From NCBI GenBank assembly GCA_016870455.1, contig VGBN01000002.1, positions 1-59,146 on the forward strand: a stretch of DNA of 59,146 nt. The letters are read 5' to 3'. Shown here in pieces: positions 405 through 1,538 of the stretch. The notes under the pieces were generated by a model. That model worked only from the letters and a program-made list of their open reading frames with translations. It was not told the origin of the DNA and searched no databases. A program made the translations under genes and the position numbers. Source of the stretch: Actinomycetota bacterium. Its GTDB lineage: Bacteria > Actinomycetota > Actinomycetes > Nanopelagicales > Nanopelagicaceae. Positions within the stretch are counted from its first letter, which is position 1, and each line of letters begins with the position of its first letter.

Positions 405-423
405 ATCCAATCAAATATCTATT

Positions 424-511
424 TAGGCCACCGCCACTTAAAAATATTCGCGGCGCCACTTCCCCGGTGCCGCGCGTTGTTAAAGAAGATCCGTCAAGTG
501 GCGGTGACCTA
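424..511 (+). ncRNA. Structured leader upstream of rsmH, resembling the actinobacterial mraW RNA motif
   Basis: Two nested inverted repeats are visible. The outer stem pairs 424-439 with 496-511 (15 of 16 positions, mismatch at 428/507). Inside it, 449-457 pairs with 466-474 (nine pairs, one G-U), leaving the loop ACUUCCCC at 458-465. The position before rsmH (mraW) and a CUUCCCC loop fit what I remember of the mraW RNA motif of Actinobacteria, a candidate cis-regulatory RNA. The loop CTTCCCC (459-465) is the exact reverse complement of GGGGAAG (569-575), which overlaps the rsmH Shine-Dalgarno. The Rfam identity is from memory and not checked. Confidence 0.6.
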
Positions 512-568
512 AGTAGATAAGTGAGCAGTTAAGTACGGATGTACAAAAAAGATAAAGAAAGTGAAAGC

Positions 569-578
569 GGGGAAGGAG
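569..578 (+). promoter_or_regulatory. rsmH ribosome-binding site, complementary to the upstream hairpin loop
   Basis: GGGGAAGGAG contains the Shine-Dalgarno AAGGAG (573-578), six bases before the ATG at 585. This supports ATG 585 over the in-frame GTG at 561. Bases 568-575 (CGGGGAAG) can form eight pairs with CTTCCCCG at 459-466, so the folded leader could cover the ribosome site. Confidence 0.65.
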
Positions 579-584
579 AAAAAA

Positions 585-1538
585 ATGAGTGCAGATGTAG
601 CGCACATACCAGTGGCACTAGATCAATGCCTTGATTTGTTATCACCCTCGCTAATTAATAAACCAAAACCTTATTTAATCGATGCCACCTTGGGGTTGGC
701 AGGCCATGCCAAGGCAGCCCTAGAGCGGTTTGAAAATTTGCATCTGATTGGAATAGATCAAGATAGCTCAGCCCTAAAAATTGCCCAAGAAAATCTAGCT
801 AAGTATTCCAACCAGATTACATTGCTGCACACCACCTTTGATCAGATTGAGCTAGCCCTTGTCCAGGCCTCAGTTTCTAAAGTTGATGGCATTTTGTTTG
901 ATCTTGGAGTCTCATCTATGCAACTTGATCAAATTGATCGTGGTTTTGCTTACTCCCAAGAGGCTCCACTAGATATGCGGATGAATCAAAGTGCACCACT
1001 AACGGCGGCCAAAGTGGTTAATACCTACTCACATGGCGCGTTAGCCAAGATTATTCAAAATTATGGTGAAGAAAGATTTGCTAGCAAAATTGCCGAAAAC
1101 ATTGTAAAAGCAAGATCAAAAGGAGAGTTAAAAACCACCAAGGAGTTAGCGCAGATAGTCAAAGACTCAATCCCGGCACCAGCTAGGAGAAGTGGTGGCA
1201 ATCCAGCCAAACGAACCTTTCAGGCAATACGGATTGAGGTAAATCAGGAGTTGGCAATCCTGGAGCGTGCAATCCCGGCAGCACTTAATGCCTTAGCCCC
1301 TAATGGCCGTCTGGTGGTGATGAGTTACCAATCACTTGAGGATCGCATCGTTAAACAATTTTTTACTCAAGCGACAAAATCAATGACCCCGCAAGCTCTA
1401 CCGGTAGAACTACCTAATTCAGCGCCAGCTTACCGATTGTTGTTTAGCGGCAGCGCAGTTGCAGATGCCTCTGAGCAAGAGAGCAATCCGCGCTCGCAAT
1501 CAATGCGGTTACGAGCTATTGAACGGTTGGGTGAGTAA
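585..1538 (+). CDS. rsmH: 16S rRNA (cytosine(1402)-N(4))-methyltransferase RsmH
   Basis: RsmH (old name MraW) uses S-adenosylmethionine to methylate N4 of C1402 in the decoding centre of 16S rRNA. The 317-residue product has the SAM-binding motif at residues 31-41 (LIDATLGLAGH), the family block FDLGVSSMQLDQ near 104-115 and a basic segment SGGNPAKRTFQAIRI in the C-terminal half. The start at ATG 585 is chosen because AAGGAG lies six bases upstream; a GTG at 561 would place the ribosome site inside the gene. The stop overlaps the ftsL start by one base (TAATG), so the genes are translationally linked. Confidence 0.95.
   Translation: MSADVAHIPVALDQCLDLLSPSLINKPKPYLIDATLGLAGHAKAALERFENLHLIGIDQDSSALKIAQENLAKYSNQITLLHTTFDQIELALVQASVSKVDGILFDLGVSSMQLDQIDRGFAYSQEAPLDMRMNQSAPLTAAKVVNTYSHGALAKIIQNYGEERFASKIAENIVKARSKGELKTTKELAQIVKDSIPAPARRSGGNPAKRTFQAIRIEVNQELAILERAIPAALNALAPNGRLVVMSYQSLEDRIVKQFFTQATKSMTPQALPVELPNSAPAYRLLFSGSAVADASEQESNPRSQSMRLRAIERLGE

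Follow-up and report, generated by a model that had tools for sequence, protein, structure and literature searches.

The invariant loop of an mraW-type RNA has conserved complements at the rsmH and mraZ ribosome sites in one actinobacterial family

What does the CUUCCCC loop of the mraW RNA, at the start of the dcw cluster, pair with, and what could such pairing do? The mraW RNA motif was described in 2010 (Weinberg 2010, PMC2864571), and its function was still unknown according to a 2017 paper (PMC5640933). No partner for the loop is reported in the literature that we searched, a search that reached few subscription journals. Here we analysed a window of 59,146 nucleotides, the whole stretch of DNA under study, from a 1.0 Mb, A+T-leaning (43% G+C) actinobacterial assembly. 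The 5' end of the window lies inside mraZ, followed by a 180-nt gap, rsmH (mraW), ftsL, ftsI and the remaining genes of the dcw cluster. All features below are on the + strand. The window starts at base 1 of its contig, and only the 3' 133 codons of mraZ are present (3-404, from the list of open reading frames; its N-terminus was recognised in related loci), the start and leader of mraZ lying beyond the contig edge. The rsmH coding sequence (585-1,538) was defined by its open reading frame and by tblastn alignment of its N-terminus in relatives. Its start was set at ATG 585; a longer frame from GTG 561 would include the Shine-Dalgarno (SD) sequence.

The gap contains a nested long hairpin (416-519 in the minimum free energy (MFE) fold), and relatives fold with the same architecture. 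In the outer stem, the 5' arm (416-439) pairs with the 3' arm (496-519) through 23 pairs, 416-427 with 508-519 and 429-439 with 496-506, interrupted by one mismatch (428/507). An earlier note on this DNA had described this stem as 16 bp with one mismatch; the stem and its mismatch stand, and the length was too short. The inner hairpin that the note had drawn (449-474) was reproduced by the fold, with nine pairs (449-457/466-474) closing an 8-nt loop (ACUUCCCC, 458-465). Across 144 relatives its pairs swap between G-C, G-U and A-U, between C-G and U-A, and between A-U and U-A, and the nested structure as a whole is kept in the genus and the family with pair-preserving changes, which bears out the expectation that the stems would be conserved. 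The MFE of segment 420-515 is -44.9 kcal/mol (z = -6.3), with none of 200 shuffled sequences equally stable, and the fold of 405-600 is also more stable than its shuffles (z = -5.1). A promoter or an intrinsic terminator at the element was considered and rejected, as a + strand scan gave none. On the 3' side of the large internal loop (about 488-495, GATCCGTC), UCCGUC is conserved in the family though drawn unpaired in the window. Three genomes of the window's genus (L079, L080 and L081) carry an additional hairpin of the GATCTAGCG...CGCCAGATC type between the inner hairpin and the 3' arm of the outer stem.

Among all Rfam families, mraW (RF01746) gave the sole match in the gap. The match is full length (model positions 1-107, window 409-530) and scores 30.9 bits, below the gathering score of 50, and its E value is 9.5e-4 when 3 kb is searched and 7.7e-5 over the whole genome. 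The element has the mraZ-rsmH location, the outer stem with its inner hairpin, the 107 aligned model positions and the CUUCCCC loop of the mraW RNA (PMC2864571), and it differs from that motif in its score, its A+U-richer stems and its longer internal loop. Judged by place and structure, it is best regarded as a divergent mraW-type RNA, homologous to the motif, and not as a formal Rfam member; the earlier assignment to mraW holds in this sense. In our sample of the order, no genome lies above the RF01746 cut-off; 130 of its 201 genomes give a match with E <= 0.1, and in the window's genus matches were obtained with laxer filters in 22 of 25 genomes. In the class, an RF01746-type element is present in 303/395 genomes (about three quarters), with scores of up to 80 bits.

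The loop heptamer CUUCCCC (459-465) is found in all 144 family genomes and in every motif locus that we read from some 30 further family labels in the class. In the window it is perfectly complementary over 7 bp to GGGGAAG (569-575) at the rsmH ribosome-binding site. The earlier note had proposed eight pairs (459-466/568-575, CUUCCCCG/CGGGGAAG); these are present in the sequence, but the pair 466-568 could form only if the closing pair of the hairpin opened, and most relatives do not keep its partner base. We therefore dropped the eighth pair and take 7 bp as the robust core. Because 569-575 shares three bases with the SD core AAGGAG (573-578), hindrance in the window would be steric in part; most relatives have GGGGGAG as the site, which holds the whole SD core. 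The predicted duplex energy at the window's SD is -13.0 kcal/mol with the assumed anti-SD and -12.8 kcal/mol with the loop.

Both heptamers occur in the window near chance frequency (CTTCCCC 7 times with 6.1 expected, GGGGRRG 16 times with 17.5 expected), so the test must be comparative. With G-U pairs allowed, all seven pairs can form within 25 nt before the rsmH start in 123 of the 144 family genomes with an rsmH start (135 distinct upstream sequences, gene starts script-called), and six pairs in 12 more. The same complement was found at 1 of 391 other gene starts, drawn from the window and from two complete genomes, G019 of the same genus and G013 of the same family. The complementarity claimed for the loop and the ribosome site is thus conserved far above background in the window's family. 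Among strong SDs only (anti-SD pairing <= -11 kcal/mol), the figures are 117/126 for rsmH vs 1/42 for background; SD strength alone is therefore no explanation. For ftsL, the next gene after rsmH, no 7/7 complement was found in 50 cases. After mono-nucleotide shuffling, 6.8% of the rsmH 25-mers give 7/7, and among 21 permutations the real loop has the top rank. The linker sequences diverge, with loop-to-site distances from 81 to 161 nt across the family. As the family genomes are phylogenetically related, p-values overstate independence and are indicative only. The variants of the rsmH site (GGGGGAG in 82, GGGGAAG in 30, GGGGAGG in 6 and GGGGGGG in 1) all pair with both U's of the loop. Because the loop is invariant in all genomes examined, two-sided covariation cannot be scored; the only changes are one-sided, A or G opposite the two U's, a pattern that is weak by itself since ribosome sites are purine-rich anyway.

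We found that rsmH, so far taken as the sole partner of the loop, is not alone. When family genomes were scanned for GGGGRRG up to 1500 nt to either side of the loop, only two peaks emerged, one at the rsmH ribosome-binding site and one at the mraZ start, 500-650 nt upstream. This second conserved loop partner, at the mraZ ribosome site, is what is new here. The outermost upstream matches precede the promoter-like region of mraZ, and the count was restricted to matches no more than 30 nt from the start codon of mraZ. On this count 42/49 genomes have the mraZ-site complement, 37/49 have both sites and 48/49 have at least one. The genus of L011-L013 is without the rsmH complement and keeps GGGGAGG at mraZ. 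In the window's genus the rsmH complement is the commoner of the two and the mraZ site is found at the base of another leader hairpin; in L070 and L078, the nearest relatives of the window, it reads GGGGGGU, a weaker 6-nt match.

Exact GGGGAAG is present in the mraZ leader of most other genera of the family and of genus g315, which carries another family label. In those leaders (e.g. L205, L213, L297-L301, L303, L304, L005 and L002) U/C-GGGGAAG forms a hairpin loop, whose stem shows compensatory changes such as GGUGACC/GGUUGCC, GGUGGUU/AAUCGCC and GCUCAGC/GUUGAGC. Over 24 distinct sequences the covariation of this stem is 0.425 vs 0.212 +- 0.029 when shuffled (0/500), and slid versions give at most 0.22; in some genomes of the family this stem is weak. 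Two hairpins with exactly complementary loops that flank mraZ suggest a kissing interaction across mraZ in the sister genera. Just upstream of mraZ (e.g. in L002 and L007), four GTGG-type repeats with a 10-bp period overlap promoter-like sequence (TTGAAA/TAAAGT) and are probably MraZ boxes. No tandem GTGG-type boxes were found at the rsmH site, where a single GGGGRRG stands without a repeat.

The structure, the invariant loop and the family-conserved complementarity at both sites are established by sequence comparison and folding. We propose, with a probability of about 0.5, that the loop acts in cis as an anti-Shine-Dalgarno that lowers rsmH initiation in the window's family, and that the mraZ site competes for the loop. 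The rigid double stem of the mraW-type RNA would display the CUUCCCC loop, which could form 7 bp with the GGGGRRG of the rsmH ribosome site, some 110 nt downstream, and reduce initiation there, or could instead pair with the matching site at the mraZ start about 500 nt upstream. The two sites would compete for one loop, and when one ribosome site is occupied the other would be freed. At the rsmH site the predicted duplex energies are balanced (median -11.8 with the loop and -12.3 with the anti-SD, the latter an estimate from one assumed standard 16S tail) and would therefore fit what a switch needs. The rsmH SD of Mycobacterium tuberculosis is reported as GGGGAGG too, and RNA is transcribed from the mraZ-rsmH gap there (PMC3526491). 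Pairing in the cell, repression and competition between the sites are what we infer from these data. That the loop toggles between the mraZ and rsmH ribosome sites of one transcript, through a loop-loop kiss at mraZ in the sister genera, as a ligand-free RNA switch, is a doubtful extension; if true, such a toggle would trade synthesis of the dcw repressor MraZ against that of the first dcw enzyme. The complementary partners suggest, in a form open to experiment, how the element might act on the genes that begin the cell-division cluster. Control of entry into the whole dcw operon, as the earlier note had proposed, would be a conjecture that goes beyond these data.

The nearest proven parallel is the icaR mRNA of Staphylococcus aureus (PMC3868564): a UCCCCUG motif in its 3'-UTR base-pairs with the transcript's own SD, prevents initiation and creates a cleavage site for RNase III. 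Both have a C-rich motif complementary to an SD region of the same transcript, presumably a single one here as well, with one gene between the two. Such a conserved motif, again with the shared transcript presumed, was found in the window's family only. Unlike icaR, where the motif lies in the 3'-UTR, it is here held in a closed hairpin loop inside an operon, facing two candidate ribosome sites. The UpsM leader/sRNA of Rhodobacter sphaeroides (PMC5089854) is likewise an RNA-level element at the start of the dcw cluster, but it is a terminator-bearing 5' leader that precedes mraZ, is confined to Rhodobacteraceae, and is not an mraZ-rsmH hairpin.

What stands against an anti-Shine-Dalgarno in cis is that the loop is equally invariant where rsmH is without a complement, as at all but 7 of 107 rsmH sites in other families and in genera such as that of L011-L013. 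Pairing with rsmH is no general trait of mraW RNAs; class-wide pairing was rejected, since other families keep CUUCCCC without the rsmH complement (7/107 vs 8/348 background, p = 0.056). The window element thus differs from most mraW RNAs in carrying a ribosome-site complement, and the passages of Weinberg 2010 on the motif (PMC2864571) name no loop partner. At mraZ, GGGGRRG is present at 21 of 94 sites in the class vs 8/348 ordinary genes (p = 1e-9). As the reason for the invariance of the loop, class-wide mraZ pairing was rejected as well, because the match is also found in 4/30 genomes of a motif-free control (p = 0.43 against 21/94) and is thus unspecific; this control was made up of 30 genomes from Actinomycetota of other classes, in none of which CUUCCCC follows mraZ. 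The sequence evidence makes pairing a well-supported property of the window's family, with a mraZ-only form in genus g315, and the invariance of the loop across the class is not explained by it.

This invariance would be explained if a conserved trans-acting factor bound CUUCCCC, for instance RsmH itself, a C-binding protein of the KH or another type, or a further RNA, the complementarity to ribosome sites in the family then being a secondary layer or a by-product. The loop is identical in all families examined, though most of their rsmH sites are without a complement, and the breadth of the element in the class points the same way. For the class, a loop-binding factor is a serious rival. As the account of the window's family it is possible but on the unlikely side, as it fails to explain why the complement occurs at exactly the two flanking ribosome sites and is absent at ftsL. 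A coincidence of composition, in which unusually G-rich SDs of rsmH and mraZ, or DNA boxes for the MraZ repressor, match the loop by chance, would agree with the G-rich mraZ ribosome sites of motif-free relatives (GGGRRG in 11/30), with the strong anti-SD pairing of rsmH (median -12.3 vs -7.3) and with the GTGG repeats just upstream of mraZ. We consider it improbable: equally strong SDs in these genomes show the pattern in only 1/42, a single copy without a GTGG repeat differs from the tandem boxes upstream of mraZ, and the mraZ copy sits in a covarying RNA hairpin in the sister genera.

The element does not have to serve as an rsmH leader in every lineage: in Corynebacterium diphtheriae the motif precedes the mapped rsmH start site (PMC5784534). 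In C. glutamicum a 5' end maps inside the 3' end of the motif (PMC3890552), and efficient division needs RNase III cleavage of the mraZ mRNA, as cited in a later paper (Maeda 2016, in PMC8247434). The start sites mapped in corynebacteria suggest mraZ, not rsmH, as the target of the element in some lineages. That it is a 3'-end or processing element of the mraZ mRNA, whose loop and mraZ leader close the mRNA, block mraZ and form an RNase III substrate while rsmH has its own promoter and its match is minor, would suit these corynebacterial data, the icaR precedent and the kissing hairpin of the mraZ leader in two lineages, but seems quite improbable here, as no promoter-like site was found between the element and rsmH on the + strand of the window (a scan that is weak evidence) and the rsmH complement is the more frequent of the two in the window's genus.

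In a rough single-gene RsmH tree, the Ca. Nanopelagicales relative groups apart from the window's family and family label f106 is heterogeneous and forms no clade; the mraZ kissing hairpin of f1 and genus g315 may be ancestral or convergent. By eye, many class loci of other families have UCCCC in the loop and GGGGA in the 3' arm of the outer stem, a match absent in the window's lineage. In genus g315 (L205, L213 and L297-L299), the rsmH start follows closely on the outer stem and no Shine-Dalgarno is visible. Other families (e.g. L050, L247, L210, L220, L244, L263, L310 and L312) have a small open reading frame between the element and rsmH; it has its own SD, and the short protein that it encodes contains a hydrophobic stretch. 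In many families (e.g. L052, L244, L245, L270 and L271) a conserved GAAGGGTCGAG, longer than an ordinary Shine-Dalgarno, abuts the start codon of rsmH or of the small open reading frame.
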